From Chloroflexi bacterium CSP1-4 (GTDB lineage Bacteria > Chloroflexota > Limnocylindria > Limnocylindrales > CSP1-4): a stretch of 64,000 nt of DNA. Shown here piece by piece: positions 15,034-37,884 of this stretch (positions are counted from its first letter, which is position 1; each line of letters opens with the position of its first letter). Below the pieces are notes generated by a model. That model saw only the letters and a list, made by a program, of their open reading frames with translations, ran no database searches and was not told where the DNA came from. Position numbers and translations under genes: made by a program. The stretch is from the NCBI GenBank assembly GCA_001443375.1, contig LDXM01000013.1:1-64000 (forward strand), read 5' to 3'.

Positions 15034-17786
<2,753 letters not shown>

Positions 17787-17798
17787 GCGCGGATTGTA
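17787..17798 (-). promoter_or_regulatory. Probable leaderless promoter of hom
   Basis: Minus-strand TACAAT (17798-17793) ends 6 nt before the GTG of hom. It is the closest match to the TATAAT consensus among the leaderless sites in the window. Confidence 0.55.
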
Positions 17799-17879
17799 TG
17801 ACCCCGTCGCTGCCAGGCTCGCCCGGCCGGGCACAAACCGTTGACGGCGGAGCCAGGCTGCCGCCCGTTCGACGACCGG

Positions 17880-17918
17880 GCCAAAACGAAGCGACCGCCG
17901 CAAACGCGACGGCCGCTT
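17880..17918 (-). terminator. Intrinsic terminator of the microprotein transcript
   Basis: Read on the minus strand, AAGCGGCCGTCGC (17918-17906) and GCGGCGGTCGCTT (17901-17889) form a 13-bp stem, continuous when two G-U wobbles are allowed, around a GTTT loop. CGTTTTGG follows. On the plus strand the two wobbles become A-C mismatches and there is no T-run, so it acts for minus-strand transcription. It closes the riboswitch/microprotein unit before the hom promoter. Confidence 0.75.
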
Positions 17919-17951
17919 GGGTGCTGCCCGGGCCGTGACGGCCCGCTCCGC

Positions 17952-18053
17952 CTAGTTCCAGCGCTTGCCGGCCTCGAGGACGAGGGCCGAGCTGGCGATG
18001 GCAGACATGACGAGGAGGAAGCGGAACACCAGGTATCTGGAGTGCTGCTTCAT
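17952..18053 (-). CDS. 33-residue membrane microprotein B, second of a tandem pair
   Basis: I do not recognise a family. The frame starts at ATG 18053 and encodes 33 residues: a basic N-terminus (MKQHSRY), one hydrophobic span (about 8-27, with FRFLLVMSAIASSALVL) and a short polar end EAGKRWN. It resembles the preceding microprotein: both share the pattern SA(V/I)AS(M/S)AL, two variable residues, then (T/E)AG(T/K)RW and one last residue. It begins 2 nt after the stop of microprotein A, implying coupled translation, and the terminator follows 33 nt later. Expected to insert in the membrane; function unknown. Confidence 0.6.
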   Translation of the reverse strand: MKQHSRYLVFRFLLVMSAIASSALVLEAGKRWN

Positions 18054-18055
18054 CG

Positions 18056-18145
18056 TCAGTACCACCGTGTCCCAGCCGTGACGGTCAGCGCCATCGACGC
18101 CACCGCCGACAGGAACAACATGAAGCGCGCCAGGTTCGCCTTCAT
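18056..18145 (-). CDS. 29-residue membrane microprotein A under a c-di-GMP riboswitch
   Basis: This short frame begins at ATG 18145, 11 nt after AGGGAGG on the same strand, and encodes 29 residues. The N-terminus is basic (MKANLARF), the middle is one hydrophobic span (about 8-24, FMLFLSAVASMALTV), and the end is TAGTRWY. It is related to microprotein B. The class I c-di-GMP aptamer ends about 35 nt upstream. A run of seven C residues directly abuts the AGGGAGG ribosome site and could pair with it, so translation control by the riboswitch is plausible. Small size, good ribosome site, a paralogue next door and a dedicated riboswitch and terminator together support a real gene. Confidence 0.65.
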   Translation of the reverse strand: MKANLARFMLFLSAVASMALTVTAGTRWY

Positions 18146-18180
18146 CTGATTTCGAGCCTCCCTAGGGGGGGTCCCTGCGA

Positions 18181-18270
18181 TGCCCTCCCCGGCAACCGGG
18201 CTACCTCCGGCGGAACGGAGGCCCCTGGCTTTGCGTCCCCGCCTCGCGACGGGTTTGCCCTGGACGGTCT
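18181..18270 (-). promoter_or_regulatory. Class I cyclic-di-GMP riboswitch (GEMM-I)
   Basis: On the minus strand the conserved blocks appear in the right order and spacing: CCAGGGCAAACCC (18263-18251 region), the P2 stem CCCGTC-GCGA-GGCGGG with a GNRA tetraloop, GGGGACGCAAAGCC (18240-18227), the P3 stem CCTCCG...CGGAGG, then GGTAGCCCGGTTGCCG. These match the Vc2-type c-di-GMP-I aptamer closely. The 5' block has G at every candidate position of the discriminating residue 20, favouring c-di-GMP over cGAMP. A GGTGAAGTTCACC hairpin and a TAGAGT hexamer (18310-18305) lie upstream. The downstream genes are the two microproteins; the upstream operon makes and degrades c-di-GMP. Confidence 0.9.
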
Positions 18271-18353
18271 GGCGATCGGGTGGTGAACTTCACCGCCGAG
18301 GCCGACTCTATGAACGGCCCGGCACGCCGGCCATGGGTCGTGAGTACCGTGTG

Positions 18354-18428
18354 TCAAGGCATTCGGGGGAGTTTCCGCAACGCACCATCGGCGCGGACGA
18401 GGGCTTCGACGGCGAAGGGCTCGCCGGC
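18354..18428 (-). pseudogene. EAL-domain remnant following the GGDEF protein's stop codon
   Basis: Reading on in the same frame past the TAG that ends the GGDEF gene gives AGEPFAVEALVRADGALRKL and then, after five codons, a TGA. EAL phosphodiesterase domains begin with a YQPIVDL block followed about ten residues later by the EAL signature (VEALVRW). Here RYRPVVDL is directly followed by the stop, and VEALVR appears right on schedule after it. The remainder of the domain is missing. This is the eroded start of a former GGDEF-EAL tail, on which a TTGACA-like hexamer (18357-18352) is now superimposed. Confidence 0.75.
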
Positions 18429-20297
18429 CTACAGGTCCACGACCGGCCGATACCGGAGGATGGGCTCGCCGTTCGCGGGCGCACGCGGCGGATCGGCAGG
18501 CATGACGTGCCGTTCCACGGCGGCTGCCTGCATCGCCGGCTCGAAGACCGCGAACTGGGCCTTGCCGCGGGCCTTCGCCGTGTACATCGCCACGTCGGCA
18601 TTGCGGAGCAACTCGTCAGGCCGCTCGGACCGGTCGTTGGTCGACGCTATCCCGATGCTCGCGCCCATGGTCACATCCCGACCCTCGACACTGAAGGGAG
18701 CCTGGAGCGTGTCCACGAGGCGCCGGGCGATGAGCAGGGCACGTCCAAGGTCGGGCGCGTCGTCAAGGAGGACGGCAAACTCGTCACCTCCCAGCCGCGC
18801 CGGCAGGTCTCCGGTTCTCAGACACTTGCGGATCCGTTCGGCGACCGCGACCAGGACGTCGTCACCTGCAGCGTGGCCAAGCGTGTCGTTGACCAGCTTG
18901 AAGTCATCGAGGTCGACGAAGAGGACGGCCGGGACGCGGTCGCCTTCCTTGGCCACGTCGAGCCGCCGCTCAAGATCCTCGACCAACATCCTTCGGTTGG
19001 CCAGGTTCGTGAGCGGGTCGTGGTAGGCCTGGTAGCGCAGTTGGTCCCGCAGCTCCGAGACCCGGGCGAGCGAGGCTTCCAGTCGCCCGTTCTCGAGAGC
19101 GACGGCGGCCTGGCGGGAGACGGCCTCGAGCAGGTCGAGGTCGTCGGTGTCGAAGGTGCTGACGGCTCCACGGCGGTTGGCCACGAGGATCGCCCCGCTG
19201 ACGTGCGAATCTCCATGGAGCGGGGCTGCGATCAGGTCCACCAGCCCGAATGCCTCGGCGGAGCTCTCCTGCCCCTGACCCCGCGAGCGCGGGAGAAGGA
19301 GCGATCGACCATCGGAGGCGAGGCGAGCACGCAGCTCCGCGCGATGGTCCTCTGCGATCGGGTGCATCGGCTCGACACTCTCGCCCGGGCCGACGGTCAT
19401 GGCCAGCGCTTCGGCCGACTCGTTCCGCGGCAGGATCACGATCTCGGCAACGTCCGCCCGGAACATCCGGCGCAGATGCTCGAGGAGCGCCAGCATCACC
19501 GCCTCGAGGTCGGTCGAGCCCTCGAGGATCCGGCTCGCCTCGTAGAGCCACTCGAGCCTCTCGTGCTTCTGCCGCTCCCGGATGTATGCGCGGTAGGCGA
19601 GGAGCAGGGTGGCGACCGGGACAGCCAGAAGCCAGATGGCTCGTGGGTCGCTCCAGATGATCGTCACGCCCACGAGCGCGAGGCTCGTGTTCGTGAGCGG
19701 CACGATCGTTCCAAGCCCGACGATCTGCTTCAGCTGCGCGGGCTGCGGGCGGCCTTCCACGAGCGAGACGACCGTGGCGACGGCCACGACGCCGACGATG
19801 CTGGCCAGCATCGTCGCCGCGAAGGCCGCAACCCAATGGCTCGGCTCCAGGCTCGCGCCGCCGCCACTGAGACCATTGAACACCGCGACCGCGAGGCTCG
19901 CCTGCAAGGCGCAGAGGGCCAGATTGAAGGCCAACTTCATGGGCGCCTGTCGGCGGTACAGACCGAGCGCGACGGCAGCTCCCACGAGCTGCGCCACGAC
20001 GATGCCGGCCGGTGCGACGAAGAAGAGTCCCAGGACCACCGGGATCTCGTTCAGCGAGAACGACTCGGCCTCGCCGCGGAAGTGGACGTGGATGACGAAG
20101 ACCTCAGCCAGGAAGACGAGCCCGGCCAGCAACCACCATGGCATCGCCACGGGAGAGCTACTCGGCGCTACCGGACTGACCCAGGCCACGAATGCCCAGG
20201 CGGCGATCAACGCAAGGACGGCGTTGAACGTCCAGATCCGGGATTCGGGGCCGAAGGGGGGCCAGTCACGTGGGCGTGGCCGATTGATGAGGCGCAT
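18429..20297 (-). CDS. Membrane diguanylate cyclase (TM-GAF-GGDEF, truncated EAL)
   Basis: GGDEF proteins make c-di-GMP from two GTP. This 622-residue protein has about seven membrane segments (25-235), a coiled linker (about 236-255), a GAF-like sensor region (about 258-405) and a GGDEF domain (about 420-590). The domain has an intact GGDEF active site (503-507), DLDDFK metal residues and an inhibitory RxxD site RTGD (494-497), so it should be active and product-inhibited. The last residues, RYRPVVDL, are the first strand of an EAL domain cut off by a TAG. It follows the DUF5317 gene by 12 nt and precedes the c-di-GMP riboswitch. Confidence 0.9.
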   Translation of the reverse strand: MRLINRPRPRDWPPFGPESRIWTFNAVLALIAAWAFVAWVSPVAPSSSPVAMPWWLLAGLVFLAEVFVIHVHFRGEAESFSLNEIPVVLGLFFVAPAGIVVAQLVGAAVALGLYRRQAPMKLAFNLALCALQASLAVAVFNGLSGGGASLEPSHWVAAFAATMLASIVGVVAVATVVSLVEGRPQPAQLKQIVGLGTIVPLTNTSLALVGVTIIWSDPRAIWLLAVPVATLLLAYRAYIRERQKHERLEWLYEASRILEGSTDLEAVMLALLEHLRRMFRADVAEIVILPRNESAEALAMTVGPGESVEPMHPIAEDHRAELRARLASDGRSLLLPRSRGQGQESSAEAFGLVDLIAAPLHGDSHVSGAILVANRRGAVSTFDTDDLDLLEAVSRQAAVALENGRLEASLARVSELRDQLRYQAYHDPLTNLANRRMLVEDLERRLDVAKEGDRVPAVLFVDLDDFKLVNDTLGHAAGDDVLVAVAERIRKCLRTGDLPARLGGDEFAVLLDDAPDLGRALLIARRLVDTLQAPFSVEGRDVTMGASIGIASTNDRSERPDELLRNADVAMYTAKARGKAQFAVFEPAMQAAAVERHVMPADPPRAPANGEPILRYRPVVDL

Positions 20298-20309: not shown

Positions 20310-20891
20310 TCAGCCGCCGGTTTGCGGCGGCTCGCCAGCAGCGGGGACGACCATGCCGGGCAGGCGGTCGAAGGGCCGGCGCATGACGGCCAGGATGAAG
20401 ATGAACACCCCGGCACCGATGAGAACGTCGCCGACGCTGAAGACGTTGGCCAGGGGCAGTCCGCGCGGCAGGGCGAAGACGTCCGTGAGTGGCGCCAGCA
20501 CCACGTTGGCGCTGGTCATGCTGTTCGAATAGCCGGCACCGAGGTGCTTCCCGAGCGCAGCGAGGGCATCCGGCGTGGTGGGCATGAAGCCTCCGTTGGC
20601 GACGATCGCCAGGAGGTTGGACGCAGCGCCGATGGCTACCAGCGGGAACGCGGGTTGCGGGATGTTGGCCAGCACGAAGAGCAACGTGGCGATGGTGGAC
20701 GCGACGTAGACGAGTGGCGCCACGTCGCCAAGCAGTTCGCCGGCCGGGCTCGAGAAGATGAGGAGTTGGGCCCCGAGGCTGAGGAGCGCCACGGCTGGCC
20801 AGCGGAAGCGGATGTGCCCGAGCGGCACGACCGAACCGCCGACCAGGAGCCCGACGATGAGAGCGACCACGAGCGGGTAGAGGATGAACAT
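20310..20891 (-). CDS. DUF5317-like membrane protein
   Basis: A 193-residue protein with about five hydrophobic segments (residues 3-22, 33-50, 60-84, 87-104 and 150-170), opening with FILYPLVVALIVGLLVGGS and containing GHIRFRWPAVALLSLGAQLL, as in the DUF5317 group. The ATG at 20891 has a GAGG ribosome site at 5 nt. It lies between an HD-GYP phosphodiesterase (52-nt gap) and a GGDEF cyclase (12-nt gap), so it is probably part of the c-di-GMP operon. A sensory or scaffold role is guesswork; the family function is unknown to me. Confidence 0.7.
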   Translation of the reverse strand: MFILYPLVVALIVGLLVGGSVVPLGHIRFRWPAVALLSLGAQLLIFSSPAGELLGDVAPLVYVASTIATLLFVLANIPQPAFPLVAIGAASNLLAIVANGGFMPTTPDALAALGKHLGAGYSNSMTSANVVLAPLTDVFALPRGLPLANVFSVGDVLIGAGVFIFILAVMRRPFDRLPGMVVPAAGEPPQTGG

Positions 20892-20943: not shown

Positions 20944-22476
20944 TCATGCGGCCGGCCCGATCGCCTCGGCGGACGGGTCGACGCAGTGGTCGATGGCGGC
21001 CACGCCGAAGGCTTGCTTCCCGAAGATCGGCGCCGGTTCAGGCGAAGGCTGGTGGACCTGGACCGCACCGCGGTCGAGAAGACGCAGGAACGCTCCGACG
21101 ACGAGCGGGTCCCACTGACTGCCCGCACCCCGACGCAGGTGGTCAAGTGCCACGGCAACGGGCATCGCGGCCCGATACGGGCGATCGGCAGTCATCGCAT
21201 CAAAGGCATCGGCGACGGCCACGATGCGACTACCGAGCGGGATCGCCTCTCCCGCAAGGCCCTGCGGGTAGCCGTGGCCGTCCCAGCGCTCGTGGTGATG
21301 GAGGACGATGCCGGCACCGTCTCGGAAGAGCTCGAAGTGCACCAGGATCTTGGCGCCGATCTCGGTGTGCAGCCACATCGCGGCCTTCTCCTCGTCGTCG
21401 AGCGGGCCGGCCTTGAGGAGCACTCGGTCGGGTACGCCGATCTTGCCCAGGTCGTGGACACTCGCGGCCTGCTCGACAAGAGCGACCGCATCCTCGTCAA
21501 GACCCAGTTCGCGAGCGAGATCGGCGGCGTAGACGGCGACGCGTTCTGAATGGTGGAACGTCGACCGGTCCCGATGGTCCACGATCTGGGCCAGCGATCG
21601 GACAGCCGCTTGCGTCTGCGTCTCCAAAAGCCGAATGTGCTGGAGCGCCCGGCCGATCACCGCGCTGGGCGCCGCAAGGAGGGCGGTCCAGATGGGCTCG
21701 ACCATCCAGATCAGCGCGAAGAGCGCGCCAAGCGTTTCGGCGCCGATCTCCATCAGCAGCGTTCGCGTCCAGTTGGTGCGCAGGATGTACACGAGCGACT
21801 GCTCGGAGGCGATGGCGATGATCGCGCTGGTCAGCAGCCAATTGACGACGTAGTACGTGGCGCCGGCGGCGATCAGGATCCCGAGCCATGGGATGTGCTG
21901 ATCACCGTACTCGATGGTTCGCCGGGCGGCGTCCCATGGGCTGCCGATGAGCCCGATCGCGAAGGAAGTGACCGAGGCCGTCAGGACGAACGCCGAGACG
22001 TTGAAGACGACCTTGAGCAGAGGCCGACGCCCCACGAGTTCCTCGAAGAGAACGGCCAGGCCGATGGCCGCGGCGGCCCACGGCGCGGGGACGAGCAGCA
22101 GGATCGCGATGTGTGCGATGGTGGCGACCGAGACCTCGCCACCGCGCGACAGCGGCACGGCGACGAACTCGAGCGCTGCGGCAAGGATCGTCAGGAGGAT
22201 CGCAACGGAGATCCACGTCGAGGCCGCCTCTTGCCAGGTGGTCGGCAGGAACAGCGAGCAGGCCGCGAGCACCGCAACCACGACCACGAGGCGCCGGATG
22301 CTCGCCCGCAGCCAGCGTCCGGGCGAGACCGAGGAGAGGATCCCCGGGCGCGGCGGAGCGTCGTGTAGCCGACCCGCGATCTCCAACGTGTGCGTTCCCT
22401 CAGCCTTCGGTGAAGCGCGCGCACGCTCGATGCACGCTCCCGCTGATGATGCGTGGCTCCCTGGCACCGGGCACAT
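20944..22476 (-). CDS. Membrane HD-GYP c-di-GMP phosphodiesterase
   Basis: HD-GYP enzymes hydrolyse c-di-GMP to pGpG or GMP using an HD metal centre. The 510-residue protein has about seven to eight membrane segments (60-275) and a C-terminal HD-GYP domain (about 295-440) with HSERV, HDLGKIG (341-347) and HHHERWDGHGYP (393-404, containing the GYP triplet). All signature residues are present, so activity is expected. The start is uncertain: ATG 22476 gives a roughly 55-residue pre-membrane tail without a visible ribosome site. It is first in the operon with the DUF5317 and GGDEF genes, back to back with trpS. Confidence 0.88.
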   Translation of the reverse strand: MCPVPGSHASSAGACIERARASPKAEGTHTLEIAGRLHDAPPRPGILSSVSPGRWLRASIRRLVVVVAVLAACSLFLPTTWQEAASTWISVAILLTILAAALEFVAVPLSRGGEVSVATIAHIAILLLVPAPWAAAAIGLAVLFEELVGRRPLLKVVFNVSAFVLTASVTSFAIGLIGSPWDAARRTIEYGDQHIPWLGILIAAGATYYVVNWLLTSAIIAIASEQSLVYILRTNWTRTLLMEIGAETLGALFALIWMVEPIWTALLAAPSAVIGRALQHIRLLETQTQAAVRSLAQIVDHRDRSTFHHSERVAVYAADLARELGLDEDAVALVEQAASVHDLGKIGVPDRVLLKAGPLDDEEKAAMWLHTEIGAKILVHFELFRDGAGIVLHHHERWDGHGYPQGLAGEAIPLGSRIVAVADAFDAMTADRPYRAAMPVAVALDHLRRGAGSQWDPLVVGAFLRLLDRGAVQVHQPSPEPAPIFGKQAFGVAAIDHCVDPSAEAIGPAA

Positions 22477-37723: not shown

Positions 37724-37754
37724 GGTGGTGCCTGTCCTTTCTCGCGAAGGCTCG

Positions 37755-37884
37755 AGCACGACCGCGGGACCGGCGACCGGACTTCCAGCGCCACCGACGT
37801 CACGTCGGGGGCTGGTCACCGTAGCGGGACTGTGCCGGATTCTCACCGGCTTCGCGGACCCCGCGGTCCTGATCTTTGGTTGTC
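37755..37884 (-). promoter_or_regulatory. Cobalamin (AdoCbl) riboswitch
   Basis: The minus strand shows the conserved core GAAGCCGGTGAGAATCCGGC (37854-37835), CAGTCCCGCTACGGTGA and the B12-box-like GCTGGAAGTCCGGTC further down. GACCGCGG at the 5' side and CCGCGGTC at the 3' side can close P1. A CTCGAGCC...CGAG hairpin and the btuF ribosome site follow, fitting B12-repressed translation of the importer. Confidence 0.88.

Follow-up and report, generated by a model that had tools for sequence, protein, structure and literature searches.

A c-di-GMP-I-GGC riboswitch aptamer followed by tandem one-span microproteins with a common C-terminal tail in Candidatus Limnocylindria: a candidate c-di-GMP output unit

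The window (the whole stretch of DNA that was analysed, 64,000 nucleotides) carries on its reverse strand a riboswitch aptamer followed by two short genes, here called A and B, and an intrinsic terminator. Read along that strand, the gene order is HD-GYP, DUF5317, GGDEF and then the microprotein unit:

20944..22476 (-): membrane HD-GYP phosphodiesterase gene (Pfam HD_5 4.2e-39; weak MASE9)
20310..20891 (-): DUF5317 membrane protein gene, start inferred (Pfam PF17248 6.3e-25)
18429..20297 (-): membrane-GAF-GGDEF diguanylate cyclase gene, directly upstream of the unit (Pfam GGDEF 5.6e-47, GAF 1.6e-8)
18329..18349 (-): promoter-associated motif CGGTACTCACGACCCATGGCC, consensus GTACY-N4-GG-N-CCAT[GT]G (PWM score 21.2, where the 99% shuffle level is 10.6)
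18305..18310 (-): TAGAGT, a putative -10-like element 20 nt past the ATGG of the motif
18268..18187 (-): c-di-GMP-I-GGC riboswitch aptamer (RF03167, 66.8 bits against a gathering cut-off of 59)
18171..18165 (-): C7 run adjoining AGGGAGG, read from the sequence
18163..18157 (-): ribosome-binding site AGGGAGG of frame A, read from the sequence
18145..18056 (-): microprotein A, 29 codons (29 aa), MKANLARFMLFLSAVASMALTVTAGTRWY; 16 intact homologs after aptamers
18066..18062 (-): GGTGG, formed by the final codons of A (CGG TGG) and spaced from the start of B as a ribosome site would be
18053..17952 (-): microprotein B, 33 codons (33 aa), MKQHSRYLVFRFLLVMSAIASSALVLEAGKRWN; 20 homologs after aptamers and about 17 aptamer-free copies
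17918..17883 (-): intrinsic terminator with a 13-bp stem and a 4-nt loop (17918..17889) and a tail CGUUUU reaching 17883

An Rfam scan of the whole window matched RF03167 over its full length at 18268..18187 (-) (model positions 1-80 of 80, E 1.3e-13), a score above the cut-off for the c-di-GMP-I-GGC class. RF03167 is the 'GGC' variant model within the c-di-GMP-I clan; same-clan matches with a lower score were dropped, and RF01051 is not separately listed. The preliminary description of this locus had claimed a class I c-di-GMP aptamer under the broader RF01051, with a GNRA loop and two conserved blocks. The covariance match bears this out, and the core is present as described: a GCGA (GNRA) loop, GGACGCAAAGCC and GGTAGC. 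Fold and conserved core are thus those of the known c-di-GMP-I (GEMM-I) riboswitches RF03167/RF01051. As in relatives, a gene in the same orientation lies 3' of the aptamer; here A starts 41 nt past the aptamer end. The aptamer is a member of this known class and is predicted to sense c-di-GMP. Other riboswitch matches include a second c-di-GMP-I-GGC aptamer in the same genome (G000:C12:26341-26427 (-), locus L002, 56.9 bits, just under the cut-off), apparently 5' of a secreted-protein gene, and an AdoCbl (cobalamin) riboswitch elsewhere in the window (37726-37881 (-), RF01482, 64.2 bits, over the cut-off).

The arrangement behind the aptamer had been described as two frames of 29 and 33 codons, 2 nt apart, ahead of an intrinsic terminator, and all of these elements were recovered: A and B are separated by 2 nt on the same strand, the terminator has a fold z-score of -2.8, and a consensus scan calls the same terminator. 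The aptamer was found in 57 of 107 genomes of the same family. We retrieved 85 aptamer loci, and in 27 of them an A-like or B-like frame comes next. Homologs after aptamers (16 intact ones of A, 20 of B) were aligned. In both sets the third codon position is the most variable, with mismatch at positions 1/2/3 of 0.29/0.20/0.40 for A and 0.32/0.25/0.46 for B, and the GC content at position 3 is 0.87-0.89. The closest pairs of homologs yield dN/dS values of about 0.1-0.3, and pN is lower than pS relative to the window copy in 13 of 15 comparisons for A and in all 19 for B. Since other genera also have A and B behind this aptamer, with a conserved coding pattern, their presence here is more than chance; judged by these substitution patterns, they are real genes under purifying selection. 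Of the tests proposed earlier, conservation of the frames, a dN/dS well below 1 and the occurrence of frames ending in AG-x-RW in related genomes have, like the covariance match, come out in favour of the description.

A and B are also paralogs by profile comparison (hhalign 95.5%, E 1.4e-8); membrane segments so short match one another partly by composition, which weakens such comparisons. Together with the tails kept in relatives, the paralogy agrees with the original view of two paralogous one-span microproteins with a common AG-x-RW ending. Among the invariant positions are an Arg ahead of the span and the A, G, R and W of the tail; homologs of A tolerate up to about nine residues past RW. 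AlphaFold models B as a single helix (residues 2-32, mean pLDDT 88.7). Neither A nor B, nor the frame C introduced below, matched a Pfam or NCBIfam curated model over the cut-off, and the Flp/Tad pilin model PF04964 gave no profile match for A or B.

The anatomy of the unit is largely constant. A tandem with both helices follows the aptamer in at least 10 units and about 20 more have one helix, spread over two families of the class. In nearly all units A begins 31-57 nt past the aptamer, too close for a terminator to fit between them, which argues that control by the aptamer is likely translational. The start of B usually falls -4 to +7 nt from the stop of A. In the window and several relatives (GGTGG stands at a similar position in L009, L028, L050 and others) the Arg-Trp codons of A supply the ribosome site of B, suggesting that translation of B is likely coupled to that of A through GGTGG. 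Of the 27 homologous units, 22 are followed by a hairpin with a T-rich tail; among 27 control stretches, 7 are. Folding of 16 units gave no conserved alternative structure between the aptamer and the ribosome site of A, a result that counts against the model of switching given below. The C7 run, proposed earlier as the switch, is not supported: it is specific to the window genome, being absent from the relatives compared, and no conserved expression-platform structure was found. A common ribosome-site hairpin was also considered, as GACTC..GAGTC was seen by eye around the site in L009, L055 and L070, and was rejected given that no consistent sequestration appeared across the 16 units folded.

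Within the class Candidatus Limnocylindria (Chloroflexota), A/B frames follow the same aptamer at about 30 loci, and the whole-family profile matches 47 of 177 genomes of the class. In a second family of the class (G161, locus L201) the pair again follows the aptamer and lies beside DUF5317. Among 400 sampled Chloroflexota genomes outside the class the family is essentially absent. About 17 copies are single genes without an aptamer match in Rfam, and the Rfam scan found no other riboswitch ahead of them. A separate SAH riboswitch match, at L207:2232-2275 (-), stays just under the cut-off (36.2 against 37 bits). Several loci deserve separate mention. Three aptamer-microprotein units stand in a row at G033:C392 (locus L084), downstream of GGDEF and DUF5317 genes. 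A homolog of B (L185, VBLP01000563.1) occurs on a contig titled Deltaproteobacteria that is probably misplaced in that assembly. At L005 and L007 c-di-GMP-I-GGC aptamers precede a single microprotein other than A or B, about 35 aa long (..FRIAVILGVALAAAGSARI) and possibly of another family.

The neighbourhood seen in the window is common as well: next to the units there are usually DUF5317 and GGDEF or HD-GYP genes. DUF5317 is the most frequent neighbour of A/B units. Among 51 microprotein loci, about 30 have it just upstream on the same strand and about a quarter have a GGDEF gene there; both counts are lower bounds, because flanks are short in some loci. The screen covered DUF5317, GGDEF, HD-GYP and homoserine dehydrogenase relatives only. 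About 17 members have no aptamer and some of these have a neighbour unrelated to c-di-GMP, so the tie to c-di-GMP enzymes is not strict.

A further shared element is the promoter motif. In nearly all A/B units the 21-nt motif, with TANNNT 20 nt on, is found about 80 nt 5' of the aptamer; the spacing from motif to -10 is fixed in aligned relatives, and the window's own genome has an exact pattern match at 18305-18347. Scores are mostly 14-26 (against the shuffle 99% level of 10.6), those of training loci being optimistic as the matrix was refined on the same loci, with aptamers before other genes excluded. The motif also precedes aptamer-free copies and part of the aptamers that stand before large secreted proteins. 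Elsewhere in the own genome, pattern matches precede a Flp pilin/CpaB locus, a CAP-domain protein and secreted proteins; the regulon scan gave 14 matches against 8 with a reversed-pattern control, meaning that only some of them are real. In relatives, the regions 5' of 30 Flp pilin matches score higher on the forward than on the reverse strand (Mann-Whitney p 0.003). At G000:C35:10599 (L175, L213) the motif, with a weaker -10, lies directly 5' of a Flp pilin gene that belongs to a Tad-type cluster containing CpaB. Distant family members at L202, L210 and L211 (..LAAGHKW, ..LVAGRRW) have two GTAC-type motif copies upstream and no aptamer.

Weak matches of the family profile led to a second riboswitch class, c-di-GMP-II (RF01786), whose aptamer occurs in 101 of 177 class genomes. 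Behind the 30 best of these aptamers a frame C is found in 25 cases with a strict pattern and in 27 with a looser one: a one-span frame of 29 to 32 aa, MKxRLxRLxxxLSxVAAxALAGGASLKGF. It is usually preceded by P, a frame of 10 codons with a strong ribosome site (MxPExxxKG[WFY]), and followed downstream by a membrane HD-GYP gene. The window's own genome carries such a unit at C12:66958-67217, with MEPNMNGKAW as P and MKARVWRVASLLGMLLAVVAAGGAGLRPL as C. Codon-position mismatch of C (0.41/0.26/0.62) has a coding pattern; that of P (0.39/0.45/0.52) is less clear, so that the case for P rests on its length (10 codons in 22 of 24), its ribosome site and its tail, in which the last residue is always aromatic while its codon varies (TGG, TTC, TAC, TAT). 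C matches A by profile (hhalign 93%, E 3.6e-7). At the level of these comparisons, c-di-GMP-II thus drives a related tandem in the class, independently of the use of c-di-GMP-I-GGC.

Tails are shared within both kinds of unit. Those of P and C are alike and unusual ones covary (LKPY/LKPY, VKGW/VKGW, VKGF/VKGF), with an identity above that of 10,000 permutations in a test that ignores relatedness. A/B units often contain one partner without a span that keeps the tail: MAPDAGRRW, MTIESGHRWELIRAF, ..VVIDAGHRWR, and ..LVIRAGHRWY in the 33-aa frames of L203/L204. As the tail is kept without the span, it looks like the functional element. Plain decay was considered for these span-less frames and partly dropped, the AG-x-RW tail being kept in several genera; in L011, L019 and L020, however, what remains of A no longer has the tail and resembles decay.

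The explanation that we consider probable is a self-contained c-di-GMP output unit, in which the aptamer sets translation of A and B and these act as one-helix partners of membrane proteins. A motif-bearing promoter would give a short transcript with the c-di-GMP-I-GGC aptamer at its 5' end; binding of c-di-GMP would let the aptamer set how often ribosomes initiate on A, the ribosome site in the final codons of A would cause A and B to be made together, and the terminator after B would close the transcript. The products would be one-helix inner-membrane microproteins whose helix carries the AG-x-RW tail at its outer edge, binding a larger membrane partner: by first choice the adjacent DUF5317, GGDEF or HD-GYP proteins or, failing these, the surface structures with the same promoter motif. 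In this way c-di-GMP would feed back on its own turnover or on attachment, and a role of A and B as small membrane regulators of c-di-GMP enzymes or of a surface programme is the function we favour. The small regulators AcrZ, MgtS and KdpF likewise consist of a single helix of about 30 aa presumed to act on a larger membrane protein; they resemble A and B by description, but have no known homology to them and are not known to be riboswitch-driven tandem pairs. Of the dedicated output unit with paired microproteins that was suggested before, the aptamer, the conserved paralogous frames and the terminator stand, whereas the C7 run as its switch does not.

Owing to the tail-only partners, the best rival takes A, B, C and P as precursors of short secreted peptide signals: the span would be a signal sequence cleaved near the invariant Ala-Gly, the freed tail (G-x-R-W-x or LKGF) the message, and the promoter motif might serve for autoinduction, as in ComRS. 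The streptococcal precursors ComS/XIP and SHP (about 20-33 aa, with a hydrophobic span, a conserved C-terminus containing Trp and a regulated promoter) resemble A and B in each of these respects; here, however, the limited neighbour screen saw no adjacent Rgg/ComR-type gene, and the visible regulation is a c-di-GMP riboswitch. An unvarying C-terminal A, G, R and W, tail-only partners such as MAPDAGRRW, the L203/L204 frames and the fixed 10-aa P peptides (..KG[WFY]), and the tails of P and C that change in step would all suit a peptide message. Yet the neighbour screen, covering four gene types, showed no receptor or dedicated protease gene as a constant neighbour, leaderless partners would need a different export route, A allows residues past RW, and the P-C covariation is subject to the relatedness noted above; we therefore judge this model unlikely.

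Two other models fit less well. Type I toxins such as Ldr, TisB and Fst are tiny hydrophobic proteins present in tandem copies, and A and B, being hydrophobic and under 60 aa, fall within the size range of this class. If they were membrane toxins of a type I toxin-antitoxin-like module, with the riboswitch replacing or standing beside an antisense RNA, high c-di-GMP could lead to dormancy. Tandem duplication and single-copy loss are common among such toxins, and in C. difficile c-di-GMP-I riboswitches control the antitoxin RNAs of type I modules (PMC11477304). The specific tail, though, is conserved far beyond what a pore former needs, soluble tail-only partners would make no sense as pore formers, and a simple scan for sigma-70-type sites showed no promoter on either strand of 17700-18450, the antisense one included; no antisense RNA is identified. 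We regard toxins as a very improbable reading. Even more remote is that A and B are regulatory leader ORFs, of which the act of translation alone would matter for a downstream gene. Short, tandem, 5' located frames and the membrane HD-GYP gene next in c-di-GMP-II units would be in line with this, but selection acts at the amino-acid level, 22 of 27 units have a terminator behind B, with a varying gene beyond it (not the layout of downstream control), and the HD-GYP genes appear to have their own motif-bearing promoter past C.

A broader and more tentative possibility, which we regard as rather doubtful, joins both kinds of unit in a c-di-GMP-gated paired-peptide system: a membrane or exported peptide and a partner would be recognised by the same C-terminal tail (AG-x-RW or KG-aromatic), and within one class of bacteria two riboswitch classes, unrelated to each other, would each have been recruited to drive such a pair. 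If so, a common receptor, protease or PDZ-like domain would bind the tail, and membrane and soluble forms would act against or with each other.

Returning to the output unit that we prefer, its kind is not wholly new: in C. difficile, c-di-GMP-I riboswitches precede small hypothetical proteins of 58 aa without an assigned function (PMC11477304). These are likewise small and riboswitch-controlled, but they are larger than A and B, belong to another phylum and are described with neither a tandem nor a shared tail (PMC11477304); the likeness is one of description. On DUF5317, on a c-di-GMP riboswitch with a microprotein and on the GGC variant, the literature searched, mostly open-access, contained nothing that describes this arrangement. 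Tandem shared-tail microproteins under two riboswitch classes and a common promoter motif were not found there either and appear to be new. Beyond the preliminary description, sequence comparison adds a class-wide family, its aptamer-free copies, the c-di-GMP-II counterpart and the common promoter motif.

The usual outputs of c-di-GMP-I riboswitches are pili, adhesins, flagella and c-di-GMP enzymes, whereas here the sole output consists of two microproteins of about 30 aa. Where c-di-GMP riboswitches in general are seen as acting on surface structures and turnover enzymes, each of two unrelated classes here serves only tandem microproteins, 10-33 aa long, which annotation has overlooked and which are spread through an abundant, mostly uncultured class of Chloroflexota. 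This arrangement points to an undescribed kind of c-di-GMP output. It yields a defined set of microproteins predicted to be under second-messenger control, a tail by which their partners may be traced and a promoter motif that ties them to surface and c-di-GMP genes.
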